A stretch of DNA of 64,000 nt from Bdellovibrio sp. SKB1291214 (GTDB lineage Bacteria; Bdellovibrionota; Bdellovibrionia; Bdellovibrionales; Bdellovibrionaceae). The DNA is taken from assembly GCF_002209355.2 (NCBI RefSeq), contig NZ_CP106855.1, positions 3,472,001 to 3,536,000 of the forward strand, given 5' to 3'. A model generated the notes under the pieces. It did not search any database. It saw only the letters and a list, made by a program, of their open reading frames with translations, and was not told the DNA's origin. Both the position numbers and the translations under genes were made by a program. Positions 8,884 to 23,770 of this stretch are shown here, one piece after another; the first letter of the stretch is position 1; each line of letters begins with the position of its first letter.

Positions 8884-10155
8884 ATGTCTTCCTCGCTGAT
8901 AAAGTCATTTTGGCCTGACTCTTCGTCACTGCTTCAAGGGATCGTCCGGTTCCGTTGGATTGCTATCATATTTATGATGGTGGGCACGGTACCTCTGCTG
9001 CAGGCGGGATATCTTTTAAGAGAGCAGCTTTTTTACTTTATGGCTGTGATTGCTTTGTTGGCCGTATTCAATGGTATGACCCAAGGTATTTGGAGCAAAA
9101 CAAGCTCCGCTAAGGAGCAGTCCTTACTGTTTGTTCAGCTGTTGGTCGATTTGTTGGCAGTGACTGGTTTGTTGTTCGTAAGTGGATCTGCAGCAAATCC
9201 ATTTATTTTTATTCTGACTTTGCACGCATTTCTGGGTGGCATGCTTTTAAGAACCAAGCGCAGTTATGTGTTTGCTGCCGTCATTCTGGGACTGCTAGCC
9301 ATTTTGCAAACGGAAACAAATAAAGACTTGGCCGTGACCATCAACGTGAATCGCAGTGAAATGTATTTCCAATTCCTATTTCAGTGGGTGGTGGTAATTG
9401 GTGCATGGTTCGTTGCACATTTGTTTTCGGGTTTACTGGAAAAACAAGAAGAGCGAATTCGCAGTTTGCAAAATCGCCAGCATCGCGCTGATCGCTTGAA
9501 ATCTTTGGGAGCATTAGCCGCTGGATTTTCCCACGAGATGGCGACTCCGTTAAACTCTTTAAAGCTGCGTCTGGATCGCGGCGTTCGTAAACTGGGTGAC
9601 CCCGTTGCAGCCCACAGCGAGATTCAGCAAGCTCAGATGTCGTTGGATGAATGCATTTCAATCTTTCAAAAGATGGCAGGTGTTTTCACTTCCTCTGCCA
9701 CGGATGGGGAATTGCAAAAACTCAACATTCATTCCGTGTTAAAAGATATTGTCCATTCTTGGGAGATCGATAACAAGGTGACTCTACATAAAGAGTGGAC
9801 GGCTTCCCAAGTTTACTGTCGCTTGCAACCTTTGTCGTTTGCACAGGCCGTGTTGGATCTTTTGGATAATGCAAAAGAAGCTTCGCCCACAGCTTCAGAA
9901 ATCTCTTTACGAGTTTTTGAAAACGACCAAGAGGTTGTCATCGAGATTGTCGATGCTGGTTCCGGAGTTTCCCCTGAAATCATTGAACGTCTGGGGGAGC
10001 CTTTTAATACAAATAAACAAAACGGCAATGGTTTGGGAGTCTATTCCGCGATGATGACCGCTCAATCCATGGGTGGCGAATTCAGCCTTAGTAACAATAC
10101 CTCGGGCAAAGGGGCCACGGCTCGCTTGTCCATTCCCTATGAGGAGTCGGTATGA
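8884..10155 (+). CDS. regB: RegB/PrrB-type redox sensor histidine kinase
   Basis: 423-residue inner-membrane kinase with about six membrane segments in the first 190 residues. The heptapeptide GSAANPF (residues 101-107) corresponds to the ubiquinone-binding GGxxNPF of RegB. The H-box LGALAAGFSHEMATPLNSL gives phospho-acceptor His217, and a Cys lies exactly 40 residues later (Cys257 in SLDECISIF), the same spacing as His225 and redox-active Cys265 in Rhodobacter RegB. N-box LLDNAKEAS and G-boxes DAGSGV and NGNGLGVY follow. Known members sense quinone pool and redox state. Start at 8884 is chosen because the 28 extra residues of a longer frame (from 8800) look non-native; no strong Shine-Dalgarno precedes either. 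Confidence 0.88.
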   Translation: MSSSLIKSFWPDSSSLLQGIVRFRWIAIIFMMVGTVPLLQAGYLLREQLFYFMAVIALLAVFNGMTQGIWSKTSSAKEQSLLFVQLLVDLLAVTGLLFVSGSAANPFIFILTLHAFLGGMLLRTKRSYVFAAVILGLLAILQTETNKDLAVTINVNRSEMYFQFLFQWVVVIGAWFVAHLFSGLLEKQEERIRSLQNRQHRADRLKSLGALAAGFSHEMATPLNSLKLRLDRGVRKLGDPVAAHSEIQQAQMSLDECISIFQKMAGVFTSSATDGELQKLNIHSVLKDIVHSWEIDNKVTLHKEWTASQVYCRLQPLSFAQAVLDLLDNAKEASPTASEISLRVFENDQEVVIEIVDAGSGVSPEIIERLGEPFNTNKQNGNGLGVYSAMMTAQSMGGEFSLSNNTSGKGATARLSIPYEESV

Positions 10156-18292: not shown

Positions 18293-20608
18293 TTAAGGTT
18301 CGGTGCCTTTTCTGAAAATCAATTCTACAGAGGTTGGATCAAAGGGTGCTTGAACTGCGTTCAGTGCTTTCAAAGTATCTTCGTCCAAAGTCACTTTCAC
18401 GGTTCCTTCTGGCCATGCGAAATCATCGGCAGGATAACGGCTGCCGATTTTCTTCATAAAGTCTGTCCAAACGGGAACACCACCGCTTGCGCCGGTTAGT
18501 TTATGTTGAAGATTGTTATCGTAACCCACCCAAACAATTGTCGTTAAGTAAGGTGTAAAGCCACTGAACCAGGCATCTTTGTTATCGTTTGTTGTTCCAG
18601 TTTTACCAGCCGCGGGGTTTGTAAATCCGTTTAAAGGAATCGCGCGACCCGAGCCAGAAATGATGACTTGTTTCATCATGCTGATCAGGCTTGCAACGGT
18701 TGCCGGGTCTTCGACTTGGCGATCATTCGGGTTGAAAGTGTACACTTCTTTGCCGTCAGCGTTTAGTGCTTTGCGAACAAAGGAAATATCTTTACGAAGT
18801 CCCATGTTGGCGATGGTCATATAGCTTTGTAAGACCTCCCGCGGATACATTTCAAATGCACCCAGAGTCAGAGATGGAAAAGCTTTTAATTCTGAATCCA
18901 CGCCGAATTTATGAGCGATATCGACGATGTTACCAAGACCCACTTGCATGCCTAGGTTTACCGTCGCCGCATTCATGGAATTTTTTAGTGCGTAAAACAT
19001 CGGAACTTGGCCGTAATATTTTTTGCCATAATTTTCCGGCGCCCATGTTTGACCTTCATACTTGATGGACTGTTTTTCATCGTTCAAAAGCGTGATCGGG
19101 GAGAATGGTTTTCCCTCTGGGGTTTCGTTCATTAATGCTGTTAGATAAACGAATGGTTTCATCGTGGATCCGACCTGACGATGACCATCGATGGCGCGAT
19201 TAAACTGAGTCATTCTGTAATTTCGACCGCCGACCACAACATTGACTAAGCCAGAGCGATTGTCGCCGACAAGAACGATGCCCTCAAGGCTACTGCCTTT
19301 TTCCTTTAGTCCCTTGATGTGCTTATTGGATTTTTCAAGATTGTCTAAGTGATTGCGCAAAGATTCTTGAGCAGCTTGTTGAGCTTCCAAATCCAACGCT
19401 GTGTAAATACGCAAACCTTCAACAGGAATTTTTAAAGAGTCCAATTGCTTACGAACGGCATCTAAATAGTAGGGAGCTGTTTCGGTCGCTAATGTCACCG
19501 GAGCTGACGGAAGTGAAGCTTTCGCGGCCTCTGCCATCTGCGATTCCGTGATAAAGTCCAAGCCCTTCATTTTATCCAAAACCAAACGACGACGGCGTTC
19601 TGCATTTGCAGGTTTTTTGAAAGGATTGTAAAGACCCGGACTGTTTACGATTGCAGCTAACAAAGAACACTCATGAAGTTCCAGATCGCTCAGTTCCTTA
19701 TTAAAGTAGTAACGAGCGGCTGCACCGTAACCGCGAACTTGGAAGGGGCCGTTTTGTCCCATATAGATCACGTTCAGATAGGTCTCAAGAATTTCATCTT
19801 TGTTAAAGCGCGATTCCAACAGGATCGACATGATGAATTCATTGTATTTTCTTTTGAACGTTCGTTCGCTGGTTAAAAAATAATTCTTAACCAACTGCTG
19901 AGTAATGGTGCTGCCACCCTCTTTGCGACCCGTAGTGATGTTTTTTACGATCGCACGCATGATGCCTTTTATGCTAATCCCGCCGTGTTCTAGAAACTGG
20001 GCGTCTTCAATGGCCATGATCGCGTTGGAGCAAGTCGGTGGTACTTCACCCAATGTCACGGTTTTTTGCATTAAAGGTTCGTTACCAATGTACTGCGCCA
20101 AAAGAGGTGCTTCGCCGAAAGCGGAGGGAACTTCCTGGAAAGGTGCGCCAAGCAGGATTTTCGAGATAGTGTTGTCGTTCTGAAAAACCAAAACCTGAAT
20201 AGAACTATCGACTTTGTCAGTTTCAACATCTTTGTTCACCCAGGCAAAACAGCCGACTTGGTTTTCATCAAGTTGCAATTGCAGGCGCGCGCTGCATTGC
20301 TCACGGGTCGCAAGAAAGTAATCTCCCTGTAAAAGACGTTGATCATAGTCGCGCCGACGGAAGTTTTGCTTTAAGAACGCGTTTTCCACAATCTCAGAGT
20401 TGGAACTATTGCGAACGCTGAACACCCGCGGACCTGCATAGTATTCTGTGGGCACAATGAAGCGTTTGGATTCAAGCTTCTGTGACATCTCTTTTTCGAG
20501 AGAGAAATAGGAATAAACACCAACCCCAAGACCCGCGATGATTGCGAGCGTCACAAGGATTGTAAATCGAATTAAAATAGTCTTTAATCTTGGTCGCAAC
20601 ATGCACAT
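18293..20608 (-). CDS. mrcB: Class A penicillin-binding protein, PBP1b type
   Basis: 771 residues; bifunctional peptidoglycan glycosyltransferase and transpeptidase, anchored by one N-terminal membrane segment (about residues 12-35) with the body in the periplasm. A UB2H-like region precedes the glycosyltransferase domain, which shows the catalytic EDAQFLEHGGI and GRKEGGSTITQQLVKN. The transpeptidase domain has SxxK as STMKPF, SxN as SMNAAT and KTG as KTGTTN. The UB2H region and motif spacing favour PBP1b over PBP1a. ATGs exist at 20608 and 20602; an in-frame GTG at 20632 is also possible, and none has a strong ribosome site. Confidence 0.9.
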   Translation of the reverse strand: MCMLRPRLKTILIRFTILVTLAIIAGLGVGVYSYFSLEKEMSQKLESKRFIVPTEYYAGPRVFSVRNSSNSEIVENAFLKQNFRRRDYDQRLLQGDYFLATREQCSARLQLQLDENQVGCFAWVNKDVETDKVDSSIQVLVFQNDNTISKILLGAPFQEVPSAFGEAPLLAQYIGNEPLMQKTVTLGEVPPTCSNAIMAIEDAQFLEHGGISIKGIMRAIVKNITTGRKEGGSTITQQLVKNYFLTSERTFKRKYNEFIMSILLESRFNKDEILETYLNVIYMGQNGPFQVRGYGAAARYYFNKELSDLELHECSLLAAIVNSPGLYNPFKKPANAERRRRLVLDKMKGLDFITESQMAEAAKASLPSAPVTLATETAPYYLDAVRKQLDSLKIPVEGLRIYTALDLEAQQAAQESLRNHLDNLEKSNKHIKGLKEKGSSLEGIVLVGDNRSGLVNVVVGGRNYRMTQFNRAIDGHRQVGSTMKPFVYLTALMNETPEGKPFSPITLLNDEKQSIKYEGQTWAPENYGKKYYGQVPMFYALKNSMNAATVNLGMQVGLGNIVDIAHKFGVDSELKAFPSLTLGAFEMYPREVLQSYMTIANMGLRKDISFVRKALNADGKEVYTFNPNDRQVEDPATVASLISMMKQVIISGSGRAIPLNGFTNPAAGKTGTTNDNKDAWFSGFTPYLTTIVWVGYDNNLQHKLTGASGGVPVWTDFMKKIGSRYPADDFAWPEGTVKVTLDEDTLKALNAVQAPFDPTSVELIFRKGTEP

Positions 20609-20665
20609 AAGAGTAGTACGAAATATAGACACTGTTGAAGTGTTTTTTCGTGAAAGGGATAAGTT

Positions 20666-21271
20666 GTGGCTAAGAAGAAATCTTCTGCAAAGAAAGCCGT
20701 AAAAAAAGTCGTTAAAAAAGTCGCGAAAAAAGTTTCCAAAAAAACGCCGGCAAAGAAAACTTCTGCAAAAAAACCTGTAGTTAAAAAGTCTCCTACAAAG
20801 AAGGCAGCTCCTAAGGCTGCAAAGAAATCTGCGCCGAAAAAGGCCGTTGCGAAAAAGGCAGCGTCACCTAAAAAAACTGTCAAAGCACCTGTTAAAAAGG
20901 CATCTGAAGCAGTAAAACCTTCGGCATCACATTTAGTGACAAAGCCAGCTGCCAAAAAGTTGGTGGATTTAAAGAATTTTGTATCTCCGTTGGATGATCG
21001 CTTGATCGTGCAAACTGCAGATTCCGAACGTATGACGGCTGGTGGACTTTATATTCCTGATACAGTCGCAGATGTTTCCGGCAACTTGCATGGAACTGTG
21101 GTGGCTGTGGGACGTGGTCATGTAAATAAAAAAGGCCATCTTCGTCCGATGGAACTAAAAGTGGGGGACAAGGTTGTGTTCTCACAATACTCTGGTTCAA
21201 AAATCAATCTTCAAAATGAAGACCTAATCATCCTTCGCGAAACTGAAGTGATGGGTGTGGTAGAAAAGTAA
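20666..21271 (+). CDS. GroES-type co-chaperonin domain with histone H1-like Lys/Ala N-terminal tail
   Basis: 201 residues from a GTG start. Residues 1 to about 105 are a low-complexity Lys/Ala/Pro/Ser region (units such as AKKVSKKTPAKK) like histone H1 or AlgP tails. Residues about 105-201 are a GroES/Cpn10 fold: SPLDDRLIV, the mobile loop region with AGGLYIPD, GTVVAVGRG, KVGDKVVFS and a final LRETEVMGVVE. Canonical GroES is about 95 residues and precedes groEL; no groEL follows here. The tail would bind nucleic acid or polyanions, so this may be a chaperonin cap tied to the nucleoid or simply a divergent paralogue. The A-rich codons of the tail are a natural spot for slippage, but the frame is intact. 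Confidence 0.85.
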   Translation: MAKKKSSAKKAVKKVVKKVAKKVSKKTPAKKTSAKKPVVKKSPTKKAAPKAAKKSAPKKAVAKKAASPKKTVKAPVKKASEAVKPSASHLVTKPAAKKLVDLKNFVSPLDDRLIVQTADSERMTAGGLYIPDTVADVSGNLHGTVVAVGRGHVNKKGHLRPMELKVGDKVVFSQYSGSKINLQNEDLIILRETEVMGVVEK

Positions 21272-21281
21272 AGGAATGCGA

Positions 21282-21815
21282 ATGTTGAAAACACATTTTC
21301 TAAAAGTGTTGGGTCTTTCTATCGTTTTGACGTCCACAGTGGCGCAAGCGATGTCATTGGATTGGTCGGGCGGCTATCGTGCAGAATGGATCGAAGTAGA
21401 CAGACCTTCTTTGGGTAATCCTTCTCAACGTAAAGCGTACGGTCTTAATTACTTGTATTTAAATCCAAAAATTATCGCGGCGGACGGTATCAACATCATA
21501 TCTCGCGTTGATATCTTCAACAGCGATATCTATCCAGGTTCACAATTGGGTGGTATTTGGGGTTCGAACAACTCTGCGAGCACTGCCACTTCCGGAACTC
21601 AAGGTTTTGGTAACGTGACGGCAAGCCAGCTCTATTTGAATGTGAATCAAGAATTTGGTTCCTTAGAGTTGGGACGCGTACCCTTCGATTTCGGTATGGG
21701 TATGATGTACTCAGGTGGAAAAGGCCCCTTCGATCACTGGTTGAACACTCGTGATATGGTTGCTTACAAAATTATCGTGGGCGACTGGTTCTTGAAACCG
21801 ATGTTGGGTCGTTAA
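21282..21815 (+). CDS. N-terminal part of an outer-membrane protein, apparently truncated
   Basis: Signal peptide MLKTHFLKVLGLSIVLTSTVAQA, then barrel-like strands (SLDWSGGYRAEW, QLYLNVNQEFGSLELGRVPFDFG) reminiscent of porins or alginate-export-type barrels. It ends abruptly at residue 178 (WFLKPMLGR) with no terminal aromatic strand, two bases before the aconitase fragment begins in another frame. Most likely the 5' part of a longer gene joined to an aconitase gene by deletion or misassembly. Start at 21282 is chosen because AAAGGA is six bases upstream; the ATG at 21276 abuts that site. Confidence 0.65.
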   Translation: MLKTHFLKVLGLSIVLTSTVAQAMSLDWSGGYRAEWIEVDRPSLGNPSQRKAYGLNYLYLNPKIIAADGINIISRVDIFNSDIYPGSQLGGIWGSNNSASTATSGTQGFGNVTASQLYLNVNQEFGSLELGRVPFDFGMGMMYSGGKGPFDHWLNTRDMVAYKIIVGDWFLKPMLGR

Positions 21816-21817
21816 GC

Positions 21818-23770
21818 ATGTTGATTCCTGAAGTGATTGGCTTCCGTTTGGAAGGTAAACTTAAAGAGGGCACGACGGCTACAGACTTGGTTCTAACAGT
21901 TACTCAAATGCTTCGTAAAAAAGGCGTGGTCGGTAAATTCGTTGAGTTCTATGGCCCAGGTTTAGAGGGTCTCTCTTTGGCGGATCGTGCAACCATCGCA
22001 AACATGGCTCCTGAGTATGGTGCGACTTGCGGTTTCTTCCCTATTGATGAAGAAACTATGAAGTACCTAAGACTCTCTGGTCGTGACAAAGAAACGGTCG
22101 ATCTTGTTGAGGCTTATGCCAAAGAAACAGGAATGTGGCGTACAAGTGATGATGAGCATTTCTTTTTCCATGATACGTTGAAATTGAATATGAGCGACGT
22201 GGTACCTTCTATTGCAGGTCCTAAACGTCCTCAAGATCGCGTGCTTTTGGATAAAGCCGCAAGCGATTTCACGGCAACGCTTTCTTCAGGATTTAGTGTG
22301 GCTGCAGATCATGCACCTAAAGCTAAATACAATACACCCGTTGAGGGCTCTAACTATCAGTTAGGCCACGGTGACGTCGTGATCGCTGCGATCACAAGCT
22401 GTACAAATACTTCGAATCCTTCTGTGATGATGGGGGCGGGGTTAGTTGCTAAGAAAGCCGTTGAAAAAGGTTTGAAAGTAAAACCTTGGGTGAAAACTTC
22501 TTTGGCTCCGGGATCACAAGTCGTCACTGATTATCTTGAAAATTCAGGTTTGCAAAAATATCTGGATCATTTGGGATTTAATCTGGTGGGTTATGGATGC
22601 ACTACATGTATCGGTAACTCGGGTCCATTGCCAGAACCGATTTCCCATGCGGTGGAAAAAGGCAATCTTGTCGTAGCTTCTGTTTTATCAGGGAATCGCA
22701 ACTTTGAAGGTCGTATTAATCCAAATGTGAAAGCAAACTACTTGGCATCGCCGATGTTGGTTGTGGCTTATGCGCTGGCGGGCTCCATGCAAATGGATAT
22801 TACTAAAGATCCGATCGGCGAAGATTCCCAAGGTAAGCCTGTTTTCTTAGACGATATTTGGCCAACAAATAAAGAAATCTATGACGTCGTTAATAAAACG
22901 GTTGAAACGAAAATGTTCGACAATCGTTATGGCAATGTATTTGAAGGTACTGAAGATTGGAAAAAAATCCAGACGACGACATCACAAACATATTCTTGGG
23001 ATGACAGCACGTACATCAAAAATCCTCCATACTTTAAAGGTATGCAGCGTGCTCCGGGGGCATTGGCAGGCGTAACAGGCGCACGTATTCTTGCGATTTT
23101 AGGTGATTCCATCACGACAGACCATATCTCTCCAGCGGGCAGTATCAAAAAAGATTCTCCTGCCGGCAAATTTTTGATGAGCAAGGGTGTGCAACCGGTG
23201 GATTTCAACTCCTATGGTTCCCGTCGTGGTAACGACGATGTGATGGTGCGCGGTACTTTCGCCAACATCCGCATTAAGAACGAAATGCTTAATGGTGTTG
23301 AAGGTGGGATGACGAAGTATGTTCCAACAGGGGAACAGATGTCGATCTTTGATGCTTCAGTGAAATACCAAGCAGACAAAACGCCTTTGATAGTTGTAGC
23401 GGGTAAGGAGTACGGTACGGGGTCTTCTCGTGACTGGGCTGCTAAAGGAACAACGTTGTTGGGCATTCGCGCAGTCATCGCTGAAAGCTTTGAGCGTATT
23501 CACAGATCTAACCTTGTTGGTATGGGTGTCCTGCCTTTGCAATTCCATGTGGGCATGGATCGCAAAACATTGGGATTAGACGGCACGGAAGTGTTGGATA
23601 TTGTGGGTATTGAGACGATGAAACCGCAACAGGATATTACGGTCCGAATCACTCGCTCTAACGGTAAAACCGAAGAGATTAAAGTGAAGTCCCGTGTCGA
23701 TACGGCGGTTGAATTGGAATACCTAAAAAATGGCGGTATTTTGCACTATGTTCTTAGAAAGCTAATGTAA
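21818..23770 (+). CDS. acnA: Aconitase A, lacking about 240 N-terminal residues
   Basis: 650 residues matching the AcnA/IRP1 family (full length about 890): it opens at MLIPEVIGFRLEGKL, an internal segment of the family, and runs to the natural C-terminus. The 4Fe-4S ligands remain (Cys195 in SCTNTSNPS; Cys261 and Cys264 in GYGCTTCIG), as does the swivel domain with GTGSSRDWAAKG. Comparison with E. coli AcnA cysteines 435, 501 and 504 gives a constant offset of 240. The missing part carries several active-site residues, so catalysis is doubtful. No ribosome site precedes the ATG. Normally a TCA-cycle enzyme (citrate to isocitrate). Confidence 0.88.
   Translation: MLIPEVIGFRLEGKLKEGTTATDLVLTVTQMLRKKGVVGKFVEFYGPGLEGLSLADRATIANMAPEYGATCGFFPIDEETMKYLRLSGRDKETVDLVEAYAKETGMWRTSDDEHFFFHDTLKLNMSDVVPSIAGPKRPQDRVLLDKAASDFTATLSSGFSVAADHAPKAKYNTPVEGSNYQLGHGDVVIAAITSCTNTSNPSVMMGAGLVAKKAVEKGLKVKPWVKTSLAPGSQVVTDYLENSGLQKYLDHLGFNLVGYGCTTCIGNSGPLPEPISHAVEKGNLVVASVLSGNRNFEGRINPNVKANYLASPMLVVAYALAGSMQMDITKDPIGEDSQGKPVFLDDIWPTNKEIYDVVNKTVETKMFDNRYGNVFEGTEDWKKIQTTTSQTYSWDDSTYIKNPPYFKGMQRAPGALAGVTGARILAILGDSITTDHISPAGSIKKDSPAGKFLMSKGVQPVDFNSYGSRRGNDDVMVRGTFANIRIKNEMLNGVEGGMTKYVPTGEQMSIFDASVKYQADKTPLIVVAGKEYGTGSSRDWAAKGTTLLGIRAVIAESFERIHRSNLVGMGVLPLQFHVGMDRKTLGLDGTEVLDIVGIETMKPQQDITVRITRSNGKTEEIKVKSRVDTAVELEYLKNGGILHYVLRKLM

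Follow-up and report, generated by a model that had tools for sequence, protein, structure and literature searches.

A second GroES with a conserved polycationic tail in the Bdellovibrionales, a candidate alternative lid for a single GroEL

The window analysed here, a stretch of 64,000 nucleotides from the genome of Bdellovibrio sp. SKB1291214, contains a gene in which a GroES domain follows about 105 residues rich in lysine, alanine and proline. The locus raises two questions: is this fusion a real protein or an error of annotation and, if it is real, what could a polycationic extension contribute to a chaperonin lid? The window genome (complete, 3.68 Mb) was compared with 23 relatives of the same genus, and a profile search was run over 369 genomes of the phylum, with tailed copies counted from its listing. 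The gene and its parts are as follows.

20666-21271, + strand: groES2 (bd3349 orthologue), a tailed GroES of 201 aa with a GTG start, stop codon included
20652-20659, + strand: Shine-Dalgarno site GAAAGGGA, six bases 5' of the GTG, with GAAAGG in 24 of 24 same-genus genomes
20666-20980, + strand: polycationic Lys/Ala/Pro/Ser/Thr/Val tail, residues 1-105, predicted to be disordered (pLDDT mostly about 50)
20981-21262, + strand: Cpn10/GroES domain, residues 106-199
21041-21055, + strand: mobile-loop tip GGLYI, residues 126-130, the GroEL-binding hydrophobic tripeptide
21128-21136, + strand: roof-loop KKG, residues 155-157, basic in GroES2 and acidic (E/D-D) in GroES1

Positions 20666-21271 form a single uninterrupted frame, tail first and then a complete Cpn10 domain, so the fusion described in the first-pass annotation is borne out: Pfam Cpn10 (PF00166) matched residues 106-199 with an E-value of 6.7e-27 (93.8 bits against a cut-off of 21.1). 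The AlphaFold monomer has a pLDDT of mostly about 90 in this domain, lower in the mobile loop, and a disordered tail. Foldseek searches with the predicted model returned GroES/Hsp10 structures as best matches (1AON, 5OPX and 1WNR, E about 1e-8), consistent with a GroES-like beta-barrel fold. The tail contains 38 lysines in 106 residues (36%), 20% alanine and two acidic residues, for a net charge of +36. The whole protein has a pI of 10.4, compared to 5.9 for the ordinary GroES of the same genome (GroES1), and seven copies of the tail would together have a mass of about 78 kDa and a charge of about +250.

The tail had also been called histone H1-like, a description that holds for its composition and fails as a family assignment. 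It shares Lys/Ala/Pro low complexity with the H1-like proteins of Hc2 (PF07382) and NF038053; however, it scores far below the cut-offs of these families (20.5 bits for residues 2-101 against 40 for Hc2) and is joined to a chaperonin lid. We rejected true homology to Hc2 on that score and, because the match is sub-threshold, use 'H1-like' as a label of composition. Searches across the whole window genome found no member of the Hc2 family, and no other protein with a similar tail at E 0.01.

Whether the tail is translated depends on the start site. Locus L020, in a genome (G006) that we take to be that of HD100, encodes 224 aa from its fourth codon and has an internal Met at nt 322, from which the product is 117 aa. 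Since the same figures (a 224-aa frame with an internal Met at nt 322) are published for bd3349, the groES2 of B. bacteriovorus HD100 (Lambert et al. 2012, PMC3464611), we assign both L020 and the window gene to the bd3349 groES2 family. The two are alike in being a second groES apart from groEL with the same neighbours. They were read differently: Lambert et al. discarded the repetitive N-terminus as an annotation error, given its repetitive sequence and homology confined to the Cpn10 domain, and shifted the start to the internal Met (PMC3464611), whereas here the tail is conserved coding sequence.

If the published start were correct, the tail would go unmade and the product would be a plain 117-aa GroES2 lid. 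The genus-wide comparison makes this highly improbable. In each of the 24 same-genus genomes the tail opens with GTG-GCT/GCA, and GAAAGG lies shortly upstream. An internal Met of the HD100 type (MPTAHL), by contrast, occurs in just 3 of 24 same-genus orthologues and lacks a Shine-Dalgarno sequence in each of the three, while in 17 of the 24, including the window species, the 25 residues that lead up to the Cpn10 domain contain no Met. The tail also evolves like coding sequence, with pairwise dN/dS of 0.06-0.19 (0.00-0.08 in the Cpn10 domain) and substitutions concentrated at third codon positions. A frameshift or false start that would split tail from domain, an error that the first-pass annotation named as refuting its reading, was looked for and rejected, given one open frame, the Shine-Dalgarno and GTG pair in 24/24 genomes and this third-position bias. 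We likewise rejected a chance low-complexity frame, on the grounds of purifying selection and conservation across the order.

These comparisons give good support to a tail that is real and maintained by selection. Among 30 orthologues its net charge stays between +18 and +54 and its lysine content between 28 and 39%, even as its sequence diverges and its length changes (67 to 159 residues in the measured set); a disordered segment under selection for charge would be expected to behave in this way. The published start-site call is thereby corrected: the 117-aa tail-less form is probably not the natural protein, and a groES2 construct built from the internal Met would miss the part that distinguishes it.

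The genome encodes exactly one GroEL, directly after an ordinary 100-aa GroES1, in a conventional groES-groEL pair elsewhere on the chromosome (the pair, with the sole GroEL, at G000:C1:1539946-1541826). This agrees with the earlier remark that no groEL follows the tailed gene, and it settles the accompanying question of a separate operon. Because the one GroEL is already paired with GroES1, the tailed gene is a second groES, located away from groEL. In a tree of the Cpn10 domain (96 columns, with poorly resolved inner branching), GroES1 and GroES2 fall on opposite sides of one branch with support of 100/98.

Tailed GroES2 is present in about 100 copies among the 369 genomes, all within the order of the window species and spread across seven of its families. 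The fusion is therefore conserved in related predators across the whole order, and the possibility that close relatives lack the tail is countered by its presence in 24/24 genomes of the genus. Three outgroup genomes of the same class have a single untailed GroES each. Beyond the order we found no tailed GroES in the phylum genomes: second matches were either GroES without a tail or Lys-rich frames lacking coverage of the Cpn10 domain. Named matches are Bdellovibrionota MAGs or isolates throughout, except for one filed as 'Proteobacteria'. An apparent tail-less copy in G081 was rejected since its contig ends inside the domain. None of the 26 tblastn records covers most of the query. Phage origin was also rejected: the listed tblastn phage matches cover the Cpn10 domain alone, with identity of at most about 42%, and among the 15 phage records listed none has the tail, alignments beginning at about residue 101. 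T4 gp31 and other phage GroES-like lids resemble GroES2 as alternative lids for the host GroEL, but differ in role and, in the listed phage records, in having no tail.

GroES2 shares with canonical GroES (that of E. coli, and GroES1 here) the Cpn10 fold and a hydrophobic mobile-loop tip. The hydrophobic triad by which the loop binds GroEL is kept in 42 of 42 aligned GroES2 sequences, and the tip reads GGLYI in GroES2 and GGLFI in GroES1, with close variants in both groups. The differences from canonical GroES are the polycationic tail of about 105 residues, a gene that is not beside groEL, two additional residues following the mobile loop in most members of the GroES2 family, and a roof loop that is basic rather than acidic. 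At E. coli positions 50-51, 21 of 21 GroES1 sequences are acidic; GroES2 has Lys in 40/42 and 42/42, respectively, and mostly Arg or Lys at position 55. This replacement of acidic residues by Lys means that the GroES2 lid has turned basic at its top and, since the two domains are similar in overall charge, the change is local. Against the NCBIfam GroES models the protein reached at best 95.2 bits where 120 is required, falling below the cut-off in 15 of 15 comparisons; judged by sequence, groES2 encodes a divergent paralogue distinct from the housekeeping GroES equivalog. Three close relatives (L005, L006 and L007) have a mobile loop that is one residue longer (ASGLLYIPD or ASGLLFIPD compared to AGGLYIPD).

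The genes on either side of groES2 are conserved as well.

18293-20632, - strand: divergent class A penicillin-binding protein (PBP1), a conserved neighbour
21276-21815, + strand: N-terminal part of an outer-membrane-type protein, the conserved downstream gene, TIGR04551-like under the cut-off and shortened by rearrangement

An outer-membrane-type gene, with a product of about 480 aa in relatives, follows groES2 in all 49 distinct loci read at the sequence level. PBP1 lies divergently upstream in 46 of these; at two of the remaining three loci the contig ends, and at L089 the stretch read contains no PBP1. Because only a few bases separate groES2 from the downstream gene in the window, the two are likely to be co-transcribed. 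The gap between PBP1 and groES2 is also very short and includes a genus-conserved block, AGAGTAGTACGAAA (window 20602-20666), which represents PBP1 coding sequence or else divergent promoters that overlap. Eight loci from distant relatives (L039, L040, L042, L043, L046, L047, L049 and L083) have a similar leader upstream of the groES2 start, roughly NGxFxIxSTxKRR in translation, that is probably a conserved promoter and ribosome-binding region and not protein. At L059 (about 9283-9290) the match to PBP1 is split into two overlapping parts that lie in different frames, which suggests a frameshift or a sequencing error.

Both the groES2 gene and the idea of two alternative GroEL lids are already known, the latter having been put forward by Lambert et al. 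2012 (PMC3464611). The openly accessible literature searched apparently describes neither the tail and its retention across the order nor the charge reversal in the roof loop and the conserved arrangement of neighbouring genes. In HD100, very little groES2 RNA is present during attack phase, and the gene is induced 2-4 h into predation (RT-PCR, one strain; PMC3464611), the period of septation and preparation for prey lysis (PMC3464611), and groES2 is de-repressed in a bd0743 mutant (PMC3464611).

On balance we lean towards groES2 as an alternative lid for the sole GroEL, with seven tails outside the cage serving as a polyanion tether to the ribosome or nucleoid; a polyanion-associated chaperonin cap is our best guess. 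Seven GroES2 subunits, alone or mixed with GroES1, would form the GroES dome and cap GroEL through the kept hydrophobic tripeptide. The GroEL/ES chamber has a limit of about 70 kDa (PMC12615815) and would be overfilled by 78 kDa, so the tails are placed outside the cage, where they would form a corona that binds polyanions non-specifically, with the basic roof loop perhaps contributing charge at the dome top. During the construction of progeny cells late in the cycle, this would position some GroEL-GroES complexes at ribosomes or polysomes or on the surface of the nucleoid. The literature searched yielded no account of the direction in which the GroES N-terminus points.

The ribosome is one plausible target by analogy with E. 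coli, in which ribosome-bound nascent chains can be enclosed by GroEL/ES (PMC12615815) and the outer surfaces of GroEL/ES form crosslinks with L7/L12 of the ribosomal stalk (PMC12615815). The other possible target is the nucleoid, because groES2 is expressed at the time of septation, when the chromosome becomes compact again (PMC10627809, PMC11318664). A point against this lid-and-tether reading is that the genes kept beside groES2 belong to the cell envelope, and a tether to nucleic acid does not account for them. More tentatively, and at somewhat less than an even chance, the order as a whole may possess a nucleic-acid-tethered chaperonin, in which a dedicated lid recruits GroEL cages, at one defined stage of the predatory cycle, to the nucleoid or to polysomes. 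GroEL/ES is usually regarded as a freely diffusing machine; if the proposal is true, this would be a localised form of it, overlooked since annotation trimmed the tail. The presence throughout an order of a lid with seven conserved polycationic tails, alongside the ordinary GroES and just one GroEL, suggests that some bacteria determine where the cage works through their choice of lid.

The same tail could instead make GroES2 a nucleoid protein, its GroES ring providing a seven-fold scaffold for H1-like tails that compact the chromosome at septation without GroEL. The Hc2-like composition of the tail fits this proposal, as does HD100 expression at the time of nucleoid re-compaction, and mycobacterial GroEL1, a chaperonin component, is listed as a nucleoid protein (PMC3724605); the resemblance is in idea only, GroEL1 being a GroEL rather than a GroES and unrelated in sequence. 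We nevertheless consider it unlikely, given that the GroEL-docking triad and the domain are constrained like those of a working lid, that the Hc2 score is under the cut-off, and that the paper on the nucleoid proteome of attack-phase cells, in its main text, names Bd0055 (a histone), HU, Dps and Bd1238 but not GroES2 (PMC10627809). The strictly kept GroEL-binding loop and the same paper count against nucleoid compaction, which the first-pass annotation had offered, as the primary role, although the re-compaction of nucleoids at septation leaves some room for a part in it; a mainly attack-phase or dormant setting is at odds with the timing of groES2 RNA in HD100.

Two further readings retain GroEL and give the tails other work. 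They might act on the chaperonin itself, by binding acidic surfaces of GroEL or its clients or by part-filling the chamber, so that GroES2 alters or brakes the cycle. The basic roof loop and the excess of seven tails over the capacity of the chamber favour such an effect, but tail lengths that range so widely are hard to reconcile with a fitted chamber fill, and we judge it distinctly unlikely. Alternatively, GroES2 might be an envelope-linked factor for the folding of cell-wall and outer-membrane biogenesis proteins, tethered by its tail to anionic membrane or polyphosphate. This would suit the order PBP1-groES2-outer-membrane protein, which is conserved throughout the taxonomic order, and the support that Caulobacter GroESL gives to division and peptidoglycan precursor supply (PMC8262945). 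Gene order by itself gives no function, however, and the window genome has a broken downstream gene yet an intact groES2, leaving this reading improbable.

The break in the downstream gene lies at a rearrangement breakpoint near window 21812, where the outer-membrane-type gene ends after about 179 aa; its remainder is at G000:C1:266723-267553(-). Beyond the breakpoint, window 21818-23770 encodes an aconitase without its N-terminal part, which is found near C1:1024000(-), and TTAAGCA flanks the aconitase break on both sides, a pattern that an insertion or a join made during assembly would leave. Another aconitase, at C1:2103727, appears to be intact. At L061 (about 1.3-1.5 kb, minus strand), runs of short CTCA and TGATTTCTAATTTC repeats precede the C-terminal half of the outer-membrane-type gene in its displaced position, and these simple repeats may show where the rearrangement had its second end.
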